DNA from: Gemmatimonadota bacterium
Lineage (GTDB): Bacteria > Gemmatimonadota > Gemmatimonadetes > Gemmatimonadales > Gemmatimonadaceae
Assembly: GCA_021298835.1 (NCBI GenBank)
Contig: JAJTHG010000027.1
Span: forward strand, 1-64,000
Reading direction: 5' to 3'
DNA: 64,000 nt
How positions within the stretch are numbered: the first letter of the stretch is position 1; every line of letters starts with the position of its first letter. Position numbers and translations under genes: made by a program. The notes beneath the pieces are model-generated. The model made no database searches and had not been told where the DNA came from. It worked only from the letters and a program-made list of their open reading frames with translations. Shown here in pieces: positions 12,279 to 54,273 of this stretch.

Positions 12279-13631
12279 TCAGCGACGCCCGTCGTCACGA
12301 TCACGGCGGTCCTCGTTCTTCCGCTTGAGCGTGATCTTGAGCGGGTTGCCCGTCCAGCCGAACGCCTCGCGGAAGCCGTTGTGCAGGAAGCGCACGTAGT
12401 GCTCGGCGACGTACTCCGGGTGGTTGCCGAAGACGACGATGTGCGGGGGAGCGACCTCGACCTGCGTCGCGTAGTTGACGCGCACCTCCTGCCCCACCGC
12501 CTGCGGCGGCTGGCGGCGCGCGACGAGCTCCTGCAACCGGCCGTTGACGTCGCTCGTCGAGACGCGCTTGAGCCGCTCGCGCTCCACCTCGAGGATCACG
12601 TCGAGCACCCGCGTGACCCGCTGCCCCGTGACCGCGCTCGTGAAGAGGAACGGCACGTATTCGAGGAACGGCGCCTTCTCGGTCATCTCCTTCACGTACT
12701 TGGGGGCCGTCTTGTCGTCCTTCTCGACCAGGTCCCACTTGTTGACGATCACGATCAGCCCGCGGCCGGCGTCCCACGCCAGATGCGCGATCTTGAGGTC
12801 CTGGTCCACGAGCTTCTCGGTGCCGTCGATGAGCAGCACACACAGGTCGGCCGACTCGATCGCGCGCCGCGTGCGGAGCGTCGAGTAGAACTCGACGCCT
12901 TCGTCCACCCGCGCCTGACGGCGCAGGCCGGCCGTGTCCACGAAGACGAGGTCGCGACCGTGATACCGGAACGGCGTGTCGATCGCGTCGCGCGTGGTGC
13001 CCGCGACTTCGCTGACGACCAGCCGCTCCTCGCCCAGCAGGCGGTTGATGAACGACGACTTGCCGACGTTCGGCCGCCCGATCACCGCCACGCGCAGCAC
13101 GGCGGCGTCCGGGGGCGGCACGTCGGGGATCCGCTCGATGACCGCGTCGAGCAGGTCGCCGCTCCCCTTGCCGTTCGTGGCCGACACGGGGAACGGGTCG
13201 CCGCCCCCGAGGTTGTAGAGCTCGTAGAACGCCGGGTCGCGCGGGTCGTCCACCTTGTTCGCGACGACCATCCACGGCTTGTCCGCCGCGCGCAGCAGGT
13301 CGAGGATGCGCCGGTCGCTCGGGTGCACCCCGACGGTGGCGTCCAGGACCAGCAGCAGCAGGTCGGCCTCGCCGATCGCCTGCACGACCTGCTTCTTGAT
13401 CTCCACGTCCATCGGCACGCGGTCGTCCATCGTGAGGCCGCCCGTGTCCACGAGATAGAACGAGCGGCCGTTCCATTCGGTCAGGGCGAAGTGGCGGTCC
13501 CGCGTGGTGCCGGCCTCCTCGGAGACGATCGCCGTCCCCTGCCCCACGATGCGGTTGAAGAGCGCCGACTTCCCGACGTTCGGGCGCCCGACGAGCGCGA
13601 TCACCGGCAGCGGCGCTGCGGCCTGAGTCAT
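12279..13631 (-). CDS. der: Ribosome biogenesis GTPase Der (EngA)
   Basis: Tandem GTPase of 450 residues needed for 50S subunit maturation. Two G domains are complete: P-loops GRPNVGKS at 15-22 and 185-192, GTTRD switches at 41-45 and 211-215, DTGG/DTAG, NKVD at 125-128 and NKWD at 297-300. A C-terminal KH-like domain follows from about residue 355. ATG 13631 overlaps the upstream stop as ATGA. In many bacteria the upstream radical SAM/PDZ gene, der and plsY-gpsA occur in this same order. Confidence 0.97.
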   Translation of the reverse strand: MTQAAAPLPVIALVGRPNVGKSALFNRIVGQGTAIVSEEAGTTRDRHFALTEWNGRSFYLVDTGGLTMDDRVPMDVEIKKQVVQAIGEADLLLLVLDATVGVHPSDRRILDLLRAADKPWMVVANKVDDPRDPAFYELYNLGGGDPFPVSATNGKGSGDLLDAVIERIPDVPPPDAAVLRVAVIGRPNVGKSSFINRLLGEERLVVSEVAGTTRDAIDTPFRYHGRDLVFVDTAGLRRQARVDEGVEFYSTLRTRRAIESADLCVLLIDGTEKLVDQDLKIAHLAWDAGRGLIVIVNKWDLVEKDDKTAPKYVKEMTEKAPFLEYVPFLFTSAVTGQRVTRVLDVILEVERERLKRVSTSDVNGRLQELVARRQPPQAVGQEVRVNYATQVEVAPPHIVVFGNHPEYVAEHYVRFLHNGFREAFGWTGNPLKITLKRKNEDRRDRDDGRR

Positions 13632-14914
13632 GCCGCCGCTCCCGCCGGCTCGTGCGCCAGCACATCGACGAAGTCGTACGAGGGATACACCGGCATCGGC
13701 AGCGCCTCGCGCACCACGACGAACCGTTCGTCGTCGAGGAACAGGCCGTCGTCGTTGATGCACTCCGCCGGGATGAGCGCCAGGTCGAGGTCGTGGCGGT
13801 CGGCGAGCGCGCGGCGGATGTCGGCCCCCACCAGCAGCCCCGCGGTCGTCGTCGTCGGGCCGAACAGGGAGTTCTCCGTCGGGATGAGGTCGAAGGTCGC
13901 GCCGGTCCGCGCCGCCAACTCGCCGAGCAGCGCCGGCATGAGCGGCGCCATCGAGGTGCCGGTGACGACGCCGATCCGGCGGCCGTCGAGCCGCGGCAGC
14001 ACCGCGAGCCCCTCCCCGACGCGCTGCCGCAGCCGGGTCACGGCGCCGACGCCGTTCTCGATCTGCGGAAACTCGCCGTAGAAGGCGGCGTCGGGCAGCG
14101 GCGCACCGGCCAGCAGGTACAACTCGTCCGAGCCGAACACCCACCGATCTCCGCGCTCGGCCAGCGCGCGCGCCTGCCAGCGGTTGGCGTGTGCCAGGAT
14201 GCGGCTGGCGTTCGCGGCGTCCATCGGTTGTCCGGTGTACAGGTGGGAGAACTGCGTGACGCCGACCGGCACGATCGCGACGCTCAGGCACGCGTCGCCA
14301 AGGTTCCACAGGTCGGTCAGCGACGCTTCGAGCACGTCCCCGTCGTTGAGCCCGGGCACGATCACCATCTGCCCGTGGAACTGGATCCCGCCTGCCGCCA
14401 ACCGCGTCAGCTGCGCGACGATGTCCGGGACCCGCGGGTTGTTCAGCAGCACCTTCCGCGCCTCGTGCGGCGTCGCGTGCACGCTCACGTACAGCGGCGA
14501 CAGCCGGTATTCGAGGATCCGGGCAATGTCCTTCTCCTTCACGTTCGAGAGCGTCGCGAAGTTGCCGTACGCGAAGGACAGCCGGTAGTCGTCGTCCCGC
14601 ACGTACAGCGGACGCCGCAGCCCCTTGGGCAGCCCCTCGATGAAGCAGAACTCGCACCGGTTCGCGCAGCGCCGGATCGTCGGCGGTTCGAGCTCCACCC
14701 CCATCGGATCCCGGTCGGGGTTCTCGATGTCGAACTCGATCAGTTCCCCGTCCGGCAGGCGGGCCTCGAGCACGAAGGCGTCGTCCGCCGTGAGGAACTC
14801 CCAGTCGAGGAAGTCCTCGAGGTCGCGACCGTTGACGCGCAGCAGTTCGGTGCCGGGCCCGATCCCCAGCGCCTCGGCAATGCCACCGCTCTGAACCCGC
14901 GCTACGCGCACCAT
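13628..14914 (-). CDS. DUF512 radical SAM-like PDZ protein
   Basis: Protein of 428 residues of the DUF512 group. An N-terminal PDZ-like domain (about 1-60) precedes a radical-SAM-type CX3CX2C cluster, with cysteines 83, 87 and 90 in CANRCEFCF; the DUF512 domain fills the C-terminal half. The family is widespread next to der and plsY in bacteria, but its reaction is unknown to me. The start is ATG 14914, first gene of the operon. The spacer upstream (14915-15042) is shared with a divergent gene. Confidence 0.88.
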   Translation of the reverse strand: MVRVARVQSGGIAEALGIGPGTELLRVNGRDLEDFLDWEFLTADDAFVLEARLPDGELIEFDIENPDRDPMGVELEPPTIRRCANRCEFCFIEGLPKGLRRPLYVRDDDYRLSFAYGNFATLSNVKEKDIARILEYRLSPLYVSVHATPHEARKVLLNNPRVPDIVAQLTRLAAGGIQFHGQMVIVPGLNDGDVLEASLTDLWNLGDACLSVAIVPVGVTQFSHLYTGQPMDAANASRILAHANRWQARALAERGDRWVFGSDELYLLAGAPLPDAAFYGEFPQIENGVGAVTRLRQRVGEGLAVLPRLDGRRIGVVTGTSMAPLMPALLGELAARTGATFDLIPTENSLFGPTTTTAGLLVGADIRRALADRHDLDLALIPAECINDDGLFLDDERFVVVREALPMPVYPSYDFVDVLAHEPAGAAA

Positions 14915-15042: not shown

Positions 15043-16503
15043 ATGCCGTCTCCCGTCATCGCCCGCCATGACCCCGCGGGTACCGGCGTCCAGTCGCCCA
15101 TCGGCCCGATCGGCCTCGACCGGGCCCTTCCGGCCTTGCTCGAACGCCTTCTCGACGTCGCGCGTGCCTTCGACGGAGCCCCGGCGCCCCAGCCGCCCCC
15201 GGGCTTTCCCTCGGTGCCGGACGGGCCGCCGTCGCGTCGCGAGCGCGCCCTGCTCGTGCAGTTCGCGTGGGTCGCATATACGGTGCTGGCCGGTCGCCCA
15301 CCTGCCGACCGGCCGCCGACGGACTGGCCCTACCGCCTCCCGTCCCTCGTGCCGCTCTCGCAGCGTCGCCCGGACGTCCTGCCGGCGCTTGCCCGGCTCG
15401 TGGACCGGGTGCTCACCGCCCCGCCTCTCGCCCCCCTGCCATCACCGGCGGGCTTCGAAGAACTGCTTCGGCGCGCCTCCACCAAGGTGGCGTCCCTGGG
15501 GAGCCCCGCCTGGCCCGCCAGTGCAGGAGCGCGACCGGCACCGCCCGCGCCCGCCGCGAGCGCGCCGGTCGTCGCGACCATCGACTTCTCTCCCGCGACG
15601 CCGGAGCCGCCGTCGGCCGTCATCGCACGGCTGCAGCTGCTCGCCGGCATCCTCGCGACGGCGACCGATCACTCGCCCCACGCCGAGCGCCGTGGGCTCT
15701 TCCGCCTCGGCTGGACCGGCTGGGAGCGACTGCACGGCGAGCCGCCGTACGACACCGACCGCCCGTACGAGCTCCTGCTCGGGTCCGACGCACCCCGACG
15801 CGTGCCGTCGCGGTCGCCCGTCGCATCGCCGCCGGATCTGGTCCCCCTGCTCACCCGTCTCACCGACCAGCGTCCCGACGCGACCGCACCGTCCCTCTCC
15901 GATGTCCGGCGCGCACTTGGCCGGATGCACCTCGAGGCCACGTGTCCCGCTGACGTGCCGGCGCCTCCGCCGATGGCGACGGCGATCGTCGAGGCGACCG
16001 CCCGCGAGGCCGAGCGCCTGCTCGATGACCTGATCCGTCAGGGGCTGGTTGCGGCCGGCCCGCGCGCCGGTGCCGCGCGCTCCATCGAGGAGCGACTCGC
16101 CGTGACGTCGCTCGCGTGGAGCATCTACCGCGTGGTGGCCGGGAGTTCGCCGATCGTCCTCGAGCCCGATGGCGCGAACCGCTACCGACCGCTCGGCGAC
16201 GTGCGGCCGGAGACCCCGCCCGAACTCGCCGCCGCCGTGGACGCGACGCTCGCGCCGGATGGCCCGCACCTGGTGCCGGGCGCCGCCACGTGGCTCGCTG
16301 CGGCGCAGGCGGCCGCCGCCGCACTCGATGTGGCGTCGCCGACGCGCGTCGCTGGAGGCATGCCCGTCGCCTCGCGCCGCCGACGCGTCAACGTCCTGCC
16401 CGAGGATCGGCTCGCGGCCGCCGCCACCCGCCCGCCATGGGGCCTGGTCGCCGTAGCCGGCACGGCCATCGCTACGGCTTGGTGGCTTTCCGCCGGTCCT
16501 TGA
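15043..16503 (+). CDS. Unrecognised protein with three tandem kinase-C-lobe-like repeats and a C-terminal membrane anchor
   Basis: I do not recognise this 486-residue protein. It contains three degenerate repeats, about residues 66-146, 216-295 and 349-428. Each begins with an aromatic helix (FAWVAYTVLAGRPP, LGWTGWERLHGEPP, LAWSIYRVVAGSSP), runs through a Pro-rich link, continues with a helix of the kind LPALARLVDRVL, and closes with a helix like PAGFEELLRRA. This order resembles helices F to I of bacterial Ser/Thr kinases (the LYELLTGRPPF ... RP.SA.EL stretch), but there is no glycine loop, no ATP lysine, no HRD and no DFG. Each repeat is preceded by an extra amphipathic helix. Linkers are Pro/Ala rich. 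A single hydrophobic helix at about 464-482 ends the chain, so a tail-anchored membrane protein is likely. It overlaps the end of larC by 32 bases. Confidence 0.75.
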   Translation: MPSPVIARHDPAGTGVQSPIGPIGLDRALPALLERLLDVARAFDGAPAPQPPPGFPSVPDGPPSRRERALLVQFAWVAYTVLAGRPPADRPPTDWPYRLPSLVPLSQRRPDVLPALARLVDRVLTAPPLAPLPSPAGFEELLRRASTKVASLGSPAWPASAGARPAPPAPAASAPVVATIDFSPATPEPPSAVIARLQLLAGILATATDHSPHAERRGLFRLGWTGWERLHGEPPYDTDRPYELLLGSDAPRRVPSRSPVASPPDLVPLLTRLTDQRPDATAPSLSDVRRALGRMHLEATCPADVPAPPPMATAIVEATAREAERLLDDLIRQGLVAAGPRAGAARSIEERLAVTSLAWSIYRVVAGSSPIVLEPDGANRYRPLGDVRPETPPELAAAVDATLAPDGPHLVPGAATWLAAAQAAAAALDVASPTRVAGGMPVASRRRRVNVLPEDRLAAAATRPPWGLVAVAGTAIATAWWLSAGP

Positions 16504-17698
16504 GCGCGTGCTGGGCGGCGTGCAGGGCGTCGGTCGCGACGGCGTGCGCCGTCCGACCCGTCGCCGCCGCCACCCGCTGGACGTCGTCGGCCTCGGGCTT
16601 CGGTCGCTCGGTCCCGTCCGGCAAGTGAGAGACCTTCACGCGCACCGGATGCCCGAAGCTCGTCACCTCGAGCATCTCGCGCGGCAGGATCGCGCGCACG
16701 GCGTCCGTTCGGCGCACGCCGAGCGTCGTCGTGTGCAGCAGCAGCGCCTGCATGAAGCGCTCGGCGTCGTCGGGACGGCAGAGCACCTCGACCCGCGTCC
16801 CGGGGCGCCCCTTCTTCATGACGACCGGCACCAGCACCACGTCGAGGGCACCCGCCTCGCGCAGCGCATCCGCGGCCGCCGCGACGAGCTCCGGCGTCAT
16901 GTCGTCCACGTCGCACGCGAGCTGCGCGACGCGCTCGCGGCCGCTCGCCGCGGCGTCGTCCGGCGCACCGGTCTCGACGGTCTCGACATCGGCCAGGATC
17001 ATCCGCAGCACATTGGCCCGATCGGGCAGGTCCTTCGTCCCCGCGCCGTACCCTTGCCCGACCGGCACATACGCCGACGGGAGGCCCGGCGTGGCGAGCG
17101 TGCGCAGGAGTGCGGCGCCCGTGGGCGTGGTGAGCTCGCCCGCGCCCTCGGGACCCGTCCGCGTCGGGAAGCCGGCCAGCAGCCGCACGACCGCGGGGGC
17201 CGGCACCGGCGTCACGCCGTGCGAGAAGTCGATCGTCCCGTCGCCGAGCTGGACCGGCGTGGTGTACACGCGCGCGACGCCCAACTCGGCCAACCCCCAG
17301 ATCGTTCCGACGATGTCGAGGATGGCGTCCACCGCACCGACTTCGTGCAGGTGCACCGCCGCGATCGTGCTGCCGTGCACCGCCGCCTCCGCCTCGCCGA
17401 GCGCGGTGAACGCGCGCGACGCAGCCGCCCGCACCGCCGGCGGGGCGTCCGACGCCTCGATCATCCGGAGGATCGCCGGCACGTGCCGACCGTGGGGTTG
17501 CGGCGGAATGTCGAAGTCCACCTTGACCGCCGCGATGCCGCGCTTGCGGAGCGTCACCACGCGGGCCGTGACGCCGTCGAGGCCGAGCCGTGCCGGCAAC
17601 CCCTCGACAAAGGCGGCCGGGAGCCCCGCGTGCACGAGGGCGCCGAGGCACATGTCGCCGGCGATGCCGGCGACGGGATCGAGGATCGCGATGCGCAT
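16472..17698 (-). CDS. larC: Nickel insertion protein LarC (nickel-pincer cofactor)
   Basis: Protein of 408 residues of the LarC family, the CTP-dependent cyclometallase that inserts nickel into the pincer cofactor used by lactate racemase and related enzymes. Seen are the N-terminal DPVAGIAGDMCLGALVHAG, the segment HLHEVGAVDAILDIVGT, the middle FSHGVTPVPAPAVVRLL and the C-terminal metal-binding part with CDVDDMTPE. In Lactobacillus the protein is made as two parts by frameshifting; here it is a single open frame. No larB or larE is nearby. The C terminus overlaps the convergent neighbour. Confidence 0.9.
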   Translation of the reverse strand: MRIAILDPVAGIAGDMCLGALVHAGLPAAFVEGLPARLGLDGVTARVVTLRKRGIAAVKVDFDIPPQPHGRHVPAILRMIEASDAPPAVRAAASRAFTALGEAEAAVHGSTIAAVHLHEVGAVDAILDIVGTIWGLAELGVARVYTTPVQLGDGTIDFSHGVTPVPAPAVVRLLAGFPTRTGPEGAGELTTPTGAALLRTLATPGLPSAYVPVGQGYGAGTKDLPDRANVLRMILADVETVETGAPDDAAASGRERVAQLACDVDDMTPELVAAAADALREAGALDVVLVPVVMKKGRPGTRVEVLCRPDDAERFMQALLLHTTTLGVRRTDAVRAILPREMLEVTSFGHPVRVKVSHLPDGTERPKPEADDVQRVAAATGRTAHAVATDALHAAQHALKDRRKATKP

Positions 17699-17709
17699 GG
17701 TCACGTCTC

Positions 17710-20766: not shown

Positions 20767-22377
20767 TCAGCGCCGCCGCAGGCGCGCGACCAACGCGTTC
20801 GCCTCGGCGACGCCCGCCGCGGCCGTCAGCAGCAGGTAGGCCGCGCCGTAGGTCCCGAGCGTGAGGAGGGCGCGGACGACGGGGCCCGACCCCGGCAGCA
20901 GCGCCGCGACGCCGAGGGCGGCCCCCGCCGACACCCCCGCCATCCCCCACAGGCGCAGCAGCGATCCGGCGGAGACGCGCACGTCGCCGATCCGCGCCGC
21001 GAGCGACCGGCGCAGCATCAGGAACTCGACGATCGCCGCAAGCCCCGCCCCAGCCGTGAGCCCGGCCACGCCCCACATGGCCGCCAGGCCGAGCGCCGAG
21101 CGCACCGGGAAGGCGAGCAGGAGCCCGAAGGCCAGCGTGAGACCGACCCGCAACAGCGCCACCCGCATCGGCACCCGCGGCTGCCGCAGTGCGTACCACG
21201 CCGAGGCGTACAGGCGGCCCATCGTGCCCGCCACGAGGCCGATCGCCGAACCGGCGAGGATCGCCCAGACCCAGCGCGCATCGGCGGCGGTGAAGCGACC
21301 GCCCTGATAGACGAGCGCCACCACATGCCCGCCCAACGCGAGGAACGCCACCGCCGACGGCACCACGAAATACGCCACGCGCCCGAGCGCCGTGCGCAGC
21401 CGGCCGCGCAGCGCCGCCGCCACCGCGTCGGCCTCTCCGAACTCGCTCGCCATCGCCGGCAATTCCGCGGCGGAAACCGACATGCCGAACAGCGAGACCG
21501 GCAGCATGTACAGCAACTGCGCGTACCCCATCGCCGCGACCGCGCCCGGGGCGACCAGCGACGCCAGCACGGCGTCGAGCCAACCGGAGAGCTGCGTCAC
21601 GCCGCGCCCCGCCACCACCGGGCCGAAGCTGCGGAAGGTCGCCCGGACCCCCTCGCGTCGCGCGTCGAACGACAGGCGCAACGTGCGGCACAGCAGCAGC
21701 ACCCCCGGCAGTTGCACCGCGAGTTGCAGGGCGCTGCCGGCCACCGACCCCCACGCCACGATGCGGACGAGTGCGTCCGGGCCCGTGCGCTCGCCCCAGC
21801 CGAGCAGTGCCGCGATCATCGCCGCGTTCCACGCCACCGGTGCGAGGTACGACCACAGGAAACGGCCGTGGCTGTTGAGGATCCCGAGCGCCCAGGCAGA
21901 AAGCGCCAGCAGGGCCGCCCCCGGGAAGAGGATGCGGACGAGCGACGTCGCCAGCGCCTGCTTCTCCGCCGGGAACCCGGGGGCGAGCACTGCCACGAGC
22001 GCCGGCGCCGCCAGCACCCCCACCAGCACGAGCGCCGACATGCCCAGCGCCAGGATGGCGGCCACGGCGCCCGCGACCCGACCGGCCTCCGCCTCGTCGT
22101 GTCGCGCGAGCAGGCCGGCATAGACGGGCACGAACGTCGCCGAGAGCACCCCCTCGCCGAGGAGGTTCTGGAGCAGGTTGGGGACGCGGAACGCGAAGGC
22201 GAACGCGTCGGCCGCGTCGGAGACGCCGAGGTAATGCGTGAACACGCGCTGCCGCACCAGCCCCGCGATCCGGCTGGCAAGGATGCCCGTGGCGACGAGC
22301 GCGGCGCCGAGGCCCGTGTTGCGGACCCGGGCGAGCCGAGCGGTCGGCGACGGAGGGTCGGCGGCGCCGTGGCCCAC
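20767..22377 (-). CDS. murJ: Lipid II flippase MurJ
   Basis: Polytopic membrane protein of about 536 residues in the MviN/MurJ family, which moves lipid II across the inner membrane for peptidoglycan synthesis. Fourteen hydrophobic segments can be traced. Signatures are the N-terminal SRIAGLVRQRVFTHYLG, FRVPNLLQNLLGEG and SATFVPVYA. GTG 22377 is chosen; a TTG six bases earlier is also possible. It follows bshC after 12 bases. Confidence 0.94.
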   Translation of the reverse strand: MGHGAADPPSPTARLARVRNTGLGAALVATGILASRIAGLVRQRVFTHYLGVSDAADAFAFAFRVPNLLQNLLGEGVLSATFVPVYAGLLARHDEAEAGRVAGAVAAILALGMSALVLVGVLAAPALVAVLAPGFPAEKQALATSLVRILFPGAALLALSAWALGILNSHGRFLWSYLAPVAWNAAMIAALLGWGERTGPDALVRIVAWGSVAGSALQLAVQLPGVLLLCRTLRLSFDARREGVRATFRSFGPVVAGRGVTQLSGWLDAVLASLVAPGAVAAMGYAQLLYMLPVSLFGMSVSAAELPAMASEFGEADAVAAALRGRLRTALGRVAYFVVPSAVAFLALGGHVVALVYQGGRFTAADARWVWAILAGSAIGLVAGTMGRLYASAWYALRQPRVPMRVALLRVGLTLAFGLLLAFPVRSALGLAAMWGVAGLTAGAGLAAIVEFLMLRRSLAARIGDVRVSAGSLLRLWGMAGVSAGAALGVAALLPGSGPVVRALLTLGTYGAAYLLLTAAAGVAEANALVARLRRR

Positions 22378-22389
22378 GCGCAACCCCGG

Positions 22390-48520: not shown

Positions 48521-48637
48521 TGCCGGCGACGGCCTACTCTCCCGCGCTCTCTCGAGCGGAGTACCATCGGCGCTGCAAGGCTTAACGACCGTGTTCGGAA
48601 TGGGAACGGGTGTGGCCCTTGCGCTCTAGTCGCCAGC
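48521..48637 (-). rRNA. rrf: 5S ribosomal RNA
   Basis: About 117 bases with the 5S consensus on the minus strand: the start CTGGCGACTAGAGC, the central CACACCCGTTCCCATTCCG, GAACACGG and the 3' region GGAGAGTAGG. The ends pair. It follows 23S by about 97 bases. End coordinates are approximate. Confidence 0.93.
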
Positions 48638-48678
48638 GAACATGGCAACGAAGGGTGACAGTGATCTGGAATCAACGC

Positions 48679-48697
48679 GATCGCGATAAGCGTCGCG
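48679..48697 (-). other. 3' arm of the 23S rRNA processing stem
   Basis: 19 bases between 23S and 5S that are complementary to 51681-51700 in the spacer before 23S: CGCGACGCTTA pairs exactly, then CGCGATC after a small bulge. Such a stem is the usual RNase III substrate that frees pre-23S RNA. Confidence 0.7.
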
Positions 48698-48735
48698 GTA
48701 AGGGGACACACGGTTTGCATGTCCGTGGTCCATAA

Positions 48736-51668
<2,933 letters not shown>

Positions 51669-51680
51669 GCATAACAGTCT

Positions 51681-51700
51681 CGCGACGCTTACGCGCGATC
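51681..51700 (-). other. 5' arm of the 23S rRNA processing stem
   Basis: Complementary to 48679-48697 past the 3' end of 23S, as described there. It lies 13 bases before mature 23S. Confidence 0.7.
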
Positions 51701-51838
51701 TACAGTGAATTGCAATCGAAATTGCTTTCACGGTGTTGATTCCACGACACGGACTCGGGGGAGTCCATGCCGCATGATCACTGCCACCTTCCGTTGTCAA
51801 ACAGCGCGAACGCGCCACGGCGCCTTCGCAAAAAAGAC

Positions 51839-51867
51839 ATCGAGAGAGACGAGTAATGTGCGGGCGG
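51839..51867 (-). other. 3' arm of the 16S rRNA processing stem
   Basis: 29 bases in the spacer. In RNA it is complementary to the leader arm at 53565-53593 at 27 of 29 positions, bracketing mature 16S. Confidence 0.82.
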
Positions 51868-51922
51868 GCGACTTCCGAGGACTTTCCGCCAACCCCGAAG
51901 GGTGGCTTACTCGTCGCTCCGA

Positions 51923-53443
<1,521 letters not shown>

Positions 53444-53564
53444 AGAGTTCTACATATGGCTCTGATCGTGGCCGTCCGAAGACGGTTCCACGTCCGAATC
53501 AACTGTCTATTTGGTCAGGTCAGACTCTCCACGGAACCCCTGCCAGGATTCCGCTTCATCGAGT

Positions 53565-53593
53565 CCGCCCGCACATCACGCGTCTCTCTCGAT
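53565..53593 (-). other. 5' arm of the 16S rRNA processing stem
   Basis: 29 bases in the leader, about 120 bases ahead of mature 16S. Identical at 27 of 29 positions to the opposite-strand copy at 51839-51867, so the two arms pair in the precursor. Confidence 0.82.
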
Positions 53594-53777
53594 TGTCAAT
53601 CAGCTTTGGTCCTGCAAGCAACCCGCATTTCAGCGGGAGCCCATATACTTACTCAACTCGAACGCCTTCCGCAAGGGGCACGCGACTCTTTTTTCAACTT
53701 CGCCGCAGTACCGCCCCGCAACGACCCTCGAGCCGATCCGCCCCTCGACCATTCCCCCGGTCAACAAGCGGGTCGCA

Positions 53778-53806
53778 AGTGTACCACCATCCCTTCAGGT
53801 ACACAA
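53778..53806 (-). promoter_or_regulatory. Candidate rRNA operon promoter
   Basis: On the minus strand TTGTGT (53806-53801) and TACACT (53783-53778) are separated by 17 bases, about 330 bases before mature 16S. The two boxes also form an inverted repeat GTGTACC/GGTACAC. Both are 4 of 6 from consensus. Rest of the 53444-53962 leader shows no gene. Confidence 0.4.
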
Positions 53807-53933
53807 GCCCCACCCGTTCGGGCGGCGCTCAACCTCGAAATCACCGAAGCGAGACCGTCGAATCAACAGAAACGCGTCCCCGCCGATGACGAAGGCGACC
53901 CCGTTGCCGGAGCCGCCTCCGATCTAACGCCGT

Positions 53934-53958
53934 CCCGACGCAACCGCTGTCGGGTTTT
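53934..53958 (+). terminator. Hairpin with T-run between tRNA-Lys and the rRNA leader
   Basis: CCCGAC (53934-53939) pairs with GTCGGG (53949-53954), followed on the plus strand by TTTT. On the rRNA strand the hairpin is present but lacks a T-tract, so it may only slow or attenuate transcription between tRNA-Lys and rRNA. Confidence 0.35.
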
Positions 53959-53962
53959 CCCA

Positions 53963-54035
53963 TGCACCCTGAAGGACTCGAACCTTCAACCTACTGATTA
54001 AGAGTCAGCTGCTCTACCAGTTGAGCTAAGGGTGC
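53963..54035 (-). tRNA. tRNA-Lys(CTT)
   Basis: 73 bases that fold as a cloverleaf: acceptor GCACCCT/AGGGTGC, D-arm GCTC...GAGC, anticodon loop CTCTTAA giving anticodon CTT, T-arm with GGTTCGAGTCC. CCA is not encoded. Last of three tRNAs ahead of the rRNA genes. Confidence 0.95.
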
Positions 54036-54060
54036 TTCGGTTGTCGTGCACTTCGCCTCT

Positions 54061-54138
54061 TGGCGCGCCAGGAGGGATTCGAACCCCCGACCAGCAGCTT
54101 AGAAGGCTGCCGCTCTATCCAGGCTGAGCTACTGGCGC
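54061..54138 (-). tRNA. tRNA-Arg(TCT)
   Basis: Acceptor GCGCCAG/CTGGCGC, anticodon loop CTTCTAA giving TCT, T-loop GGTTCGAATCC. The 3' CCA is encoded (TGG at 54061-54063), unlike its two neighbours. Confidence 0.94.
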
Positions 54139-54199
54139 ATCGTGCGGTGCGGAGCCGCCCCGCGCGTCGGCTCCTTCACGCGGGGCGACCCTGCAGAGG

Positions 54200-54273
54200 T
54201 CGGGGCGGCCGGATTCGAACCGGCGACCTCCTGCTCCCAAAGCAGGCGCGATACCGGGCTACGCTACGCCCCG
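54200..54273 (-). tRNA. tRNA-Pro(TGG)
   Basis: 74 bases: acceptor CGGGGCG/CGCCCCG, anticodon loop TTTGGGA giving TGG, T-loop GGTTCGAATCC. CCA is not encoded. First gene of the tRNA-rRNA group, with a strong promoter just ahead. Confidence 0.94.

Follow-up and report, generated by a model that had tools for sequence, protein, structure and literature searches.

A Gemmatimonadota gene encoding three tandem, non-catalytic kinase C-lobe modules: a probable interaction scaffold comparable to KIND

The KIND domain of SPIRE and v-KIND is a non-catalytic kinase C-lobe domain that occurs as two tandem copies in v-KIND and is considered a protein-protein interaction module (PMC5338823, PMC11231147). 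In bacteria, the pseudokinases EssB/YukC, MviN (ActPs3), and ActPs2 are single degraded kinase domains by review description, and a word search of a 2025 review of bacterial pseudokinases found no C-lobe-only, tandem, or truncated case (PMC12599244). Here, we analyzed a gene of a Gemmatimonadaceae-like bacterium of the Gemmatimonadota (GCA_021298835.1; draft genome of 3.46 Mb) that lies in a window of 64,000 nt, the whole stretch of DNA studied (contig JAJTHG010000027.1, positions 1 to 64,000, forward strand). Because that search found no such case, the combination seen in its product, bacterial, C-lobe-only, and threefold, appears to be new among pseudokinases as far as checked. The initial annotation called the repetition of a C-lobe half a layout not known to it. 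This overstates the novelty because the metazoan KIND domain is likewise C-lobe-only and non-catalytic, with two in tandem in v-KIND (PMC5338823). The features of the gene and its product are listed here, with the repeat scores given as bits from the wider and the own-kinase C-lobe HMM described below.

15043..16503, plus strand: triple C-lobe pseudokinase gene (ATG start, 486 amino acids plus stop; the only stop-free, codon-positive frame)
15106..15177, plus strand: predicted helix before repeat 1 (residues 22 to 45; low-confidence model; relation to kinase alpha-E suggestive at most)
15238..15498, plus strand: repeat 1, alpha-F to alpha-I (about residues 66 to 152; 26.5 and 16.3 bits; kinase matches in relatives)
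15610..15663, plus strand: predicted helix before repeat 2 (residues 190 to 207; high confidence in the repeat 2 model)
15679..15942, plus strand: repeat 2, alpha-F to alpha-I (about residues 213 to 300; 31.4 and 27.5 bits; pLDDT 85.8; kinases by Foldseek)
15970..16071, plus strand: predicted helix before repeat 3 (residues 310 to 343; low-confidence model)
16084..16338, plus strand: repeat 3, alpha-F to alpha-I, the most degenerate (about residues 348 to 432; alpha-G eroded; 13.2 and 8.7 bits)
16375..16386, plus strand: basic stretch RRRR ahead of the hydrophobic tail (residues 445 to 448; read from the sequence)
16432..16500, plus strand: uncharged C-terminal tail, a possible tail anchor (residues 464 to 486; longest uncharged run; insertion energy about +0.7)

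The open reading frame at 15043-16503 is coding. Among the frames compared, it is the sole stop-free one and the sole one with a positive codon log-likelihood under a model trained on 25 genes, which led to rejection of a wrong frame. GC3 is 0.79 to 0.89, with a lower GC2, over all codons except the last ones, and the 1458 bases are open, with frameshifts and stops absent. At 73% G+C, long ORFs often arise by chance, and the frame could in principle be a spurious one on the wrong strand or in the wrong register of such DNA; however, the GC3 pattern, the codon likelihood, and the in-frame kinase homology along the chain are all contrary to this explanation, which is hardly credible. No promoter-like match was found for the gene. 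It is flanked by a radical-SAM/DUF512 gene (13628-14914, minus strand) and by a LarC nickel-insertion gene (16472-17701, minus strand), with which it converges; the two genes share 32 bases at their 3′ ends (16472-16503). Elsewhere in the window, an rRNA operon (5S, 23S, and 16S) with three upstream tRNA genes (Lys, Arg, and Pro) occupies 48521-54273 on the minus strand and accounts for a local dip in G+C. Mycobacterial MurJ/MviN bears a pseudokinase domain; the MurJ lipid II flippase at 20767-22383 is of ordinary length, with no pseudokinase domain seen.

Searches of Pfam, at E values up to 10, and of NCBIfam placed the protein in no family, and the cutoff of the PF00069 Pkinase model was not reached. 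A wider C-lobe HMM scored 64.3 bits against the protein (26.5, 31.4, and 13.2 bits for repeats 1, 2, and 3). Because the kinases of an earlier HMM had been chosen by similarity, the HMM was rebuilt from kinases of the host genome only, selected by PF00069 alone. This own-kinase HMM scored 45.3 bits in total over three domains, at residues 68-170 (16.3 bits), 213-307 (27.5 bits), and 376-436 (8.7 bits), compared to a maximum of 10.4 bits in 4000 shuffles and 9.5 bits for the next-best ORF of the window. A profile made from the repeats, with no kinase inside, was run against 177,635 PDB sequences and picked Mycobacterium tuberculosis PknB first, followed mostly by Aurora kinases; the matches were almost exclusively kinases and every alignment fell in the C-lobe, with modest E values (best, 0.0015). 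Remote tblastn matches were present in 35 of the 179 family genomes, and the eight loci opened among these encode catalytically intact Ser/Thr kinases aligned on their C-lobe. Two own-genome profile matches outside kinases, on contigs C70 (E = 0.04) and C69 (E = 0.46), were weak and were taken as chance.

These comparisons confirm, at the level of sequence profiles, that the protein is a derived homologue of the protein kinase superfamily (PF00069) through its C-lobe, the origin that had been proposed at the outset. The source of the repeats is likely to be the PknB-like Ser/Thr kinases of Gemmatimonadota, with which they share homology over alpha-F to alpha-I and the same lineage; host kinases do resemble those of Gemmatimonadota, since C-lobes from the host's family, searched against named genomes, returned mostly assemblies of that phylum. 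The likeness could alternatively arise by chance or from Ala/Leu/Pro composition in an unrelated helical repeat protein. Such a protein would fit the lack of a Pfam or NCBIfam family, the high Ala/Pro content (the two make up one third of residues), and the uninformative structure model obtained without aid. However, shuffles that keep the composition, overall or locally, reached less than one-fourth of the own-kinase score and less than one-sixth of the wider HMM score, and the repeats-only profile picked kinases out of the PDB. With a shuffle maximum of 10.4 against 45.3 bits, chance composition was rejected as the source of the likeness, and an unrelated fold is very improbable and already strongly disfavored.

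Three tandem repeats are borne out by the three HMM domains and by direct alignment. In Smith-Waterman comparisons, repeat 1 aligned with repeat 2 at z 9.6 and with repeat 3 at z 7.6 (0 of 1000 shuffles as good), whereas the alignment of repeats 2 and 3 was weak (z 2.3); repeat-to-repeat similarity, set in the initial annotation as a point on which its reading depended, thus survives for two of the three pairs. The homologous unit runs from alpha-F to alpha-I, about 85 amino acids. The helix preceding it is not demonstrably homologous between repeats: Smith-Waterman comparison of the preceding helices detected no similarity. In a test for kinase alpha-E, 8 of 500 shuffles were as good as the helix before repeat 1; support was weak for the first two repeats, and the third gave a negative result. 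Given the weak or negative sequence test and the lack of repeat-to-repeat similarity, an alpha-E origin of these helices is not claimed. Within the unit, repeats 1 and 3 have an eroded alpha-G, the helix usually used for docking in kinases.

Structure prediction and Foldseek, proposed earlier as a check, were informative for one repeat and not for the full chain, which folded alone with a pLDDT of 36; that model was discarded. Repeat 2, modeled with 50 aligned C-lobe sequences as input, gave five helices with a pLDDT of 85.8 and a pTM of 0.78. The best 50 listed Foldseek matches of this model in the PDB were all kinases, with a TM score of up to 0.71 (query normalized) to PknB and E values of just 0.04 to 0.1. 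Because the kinase C-lobe alignment makes the model partly circular, it shows compatibility with a kinase fold rather than proof. Together with the repeats-only profile, it again points to kinases and to no unrelated helical domain. The Foldseek alignments spanned 150 to 167 columns for a query of 119 residues, and the excess of columns in this model would fit an alpha-E followed by a deletion.

The absence of a catalytic core, as first described, also held. An HMM covering the N-lobe to DFG had no match in the protein, and the chain lacks an N-lobe with its glycine loop and Lys as well as HRD, DFG, and APE. The three tandem copies differ from PknB-like kinases in these elements and in two further residues. 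First, at the alpha-F position where 64 of 64 kinases (alignments of 16 and 48) have the Asp that secures the catalytic loop, the repeats carry L, G, and A. Second, none of the three repeats retains the alpha-I Arg, the partner of the APE Glu, whereas 16 of 16 kinases have it. In addition, a Trp follows the alpha-F Gly position in all three repeats and in none of the 64 kinases. Positions that form the fold (the Gly-x-x-Pro turn, the aromatic, and Pro-Leu) are kept, and the residues lost are just those serving the missing kinase parts. Judged from these residues, the protein cannot phosphorylate by the known kinase mechanism; its layout is that of neither an active bilobal kinase nor a bilobal pseudokinase, as alpha-F to alpha-I alone was detected. 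The common Trp and the lost Asp and Arg suggest a single dead C-lobe triplicated within the gene. We infer that the C-lobe of a Gemmatimonadota Ser/Thr kinase may have lost its catalytic segments and that the dead C-lobe may then have been triplicated in place.

The predicted C-terminal membrane helix was only marginally supported. The longest stretch of the protein free of charged residues is its final 23 residues, which are also the segment least costly to insert into a membrane. Their insertion energy is marginal, about +0.7 on an approximate scale, and falls inside the range spanned by three hydrophobic segments from related kinases. A C-terminal tail anchor is plausible but marginal, and through it the product would sit at the inner membrane face. 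A soluble interaction protein, its C-terminal segment packed within the protein, would agree with the slightly unfavorable energy and with another Ala-rich helix that is equally hydrophobic on the Kyte-Doolittle scale; the uncharged run, however, lies at the very C terminus behind a basic stretch and scores as the segments of related kinases do, and a soluble form is quite improbable.

The initial annotation proposed to look for homologues and neighbor kinases in related genomes. No orthologue was detected in 179 family genomes, 395 phylum genomes, or collections of genome contigs and plasmid or viral contigs, and a genus-level search, comprising one genome, that of the host, returned the gene from that genome alone; the gene thus appears to be lineage specific. 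At an E value of 1e-9, the sole two non-self matches were ordinary kinases. In ten relatives, the gap between the DUF512 and LarC genes holds, on the opposite strand, a conserved TPR-like, probably secreted protein of ∼520 amino acids, which is not orthologous to the triple C-lobe protein; it is missing at the window locus, and a 33%-identical copy lies on host contig C73. The host genome has 27 Pkinase matches, none on the contig of the gene, whose neighbors include no kinase, phosphatase, or obvious partner. Two other host proteins have altered kinase motifs. One (C49:1618-2472, minus strand) combines hydrophobic segments at the N terminus with a kinase domain at the C terminus that reads HGR for HRD and DIT for DFG; by sequence, it is apparently a bilobal membrane pseudokinase. 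The other (C70:89291-89629, minus strand) is a divergent kinase-like protein with HSD for HRD and DID for DFG.

With KIND (PF16474), which can be tandem, the protein shares a C-lobe-only, non-catalytic, and tandem design. It differs in that its modules are three, each is shorter, and they most resemble bacterial kinases, whereas KIND is known from animals and their relatives, in SPIRE and similar proteins. The KIND profile matched neither the protein nor the host genome, where a positive control was likewise silent; any KIND-like working would thus be convergence.

We favor the reading that this is a non-catalytic triple C-lobe protein, probably a tail-anchored interaction scaffold and an analogue of KIND that evolved independently. 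Its most likely role would be to scaffold interactions or to serve as a decoy within the kinase network of the host, perhaps at the membrane. The helical C-lobe surface would make protein-protein contacts, as animal KIND modules do, and the protein may hold kinases, substrates, or other partners together or act as a decoy. A stricter version, a selected scaffold made of a triplicated dead kinase half-domain, an independent KIND-like invention for keeping kinases or substrates tethered to the membrane, is a tentative proposal with somewhat less than an even chance. Several points weaken a scaffold. First, there is no orthologue to show conservation or selection. Second, the gene has no neighboring kinase, phosphatase, or obvious partner. 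Third, two of the repeats, 1 and 3, have an eroded alpha-G. Fourth, the confident model is partly circular and the unaided one has a pLDDT of 36. Finally, the membrane tail is marginal and a promoter-like match is absent.

The main rival is a kinase C-lobe fragment duplicated in place, which would now be an orphan gene, either young or in decay, that has no selected function. Occurrence in one genome among those searched, a chain of which one-third is Ala or Pro, a strongly degenerate repeat 3, the lack of a promoter-like match, and a different conserved gene at the locus in ten relatives would all suit such a relic. However, a frame of 1458 bases whose codon usage is that of a real gene over its whole length, free of frameshifts and stops, and losses confined to residues serving the missing parts while fold-forming positions are kept argue against decay, and we consider a relic possible but rather unlikely. 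The weight of a functional scaffold is limited, as the gene is a single-genome orphan known from sequence analysis. If the protein is functional, a repeated module consisting of just the alpha-F to alpha-I half of a kinase can persist in bacteria, and a KIND-type solution has arisen two or more times. The protein would also serve as a natural test of which C-lobe residues folding and binding still require without catalysis.
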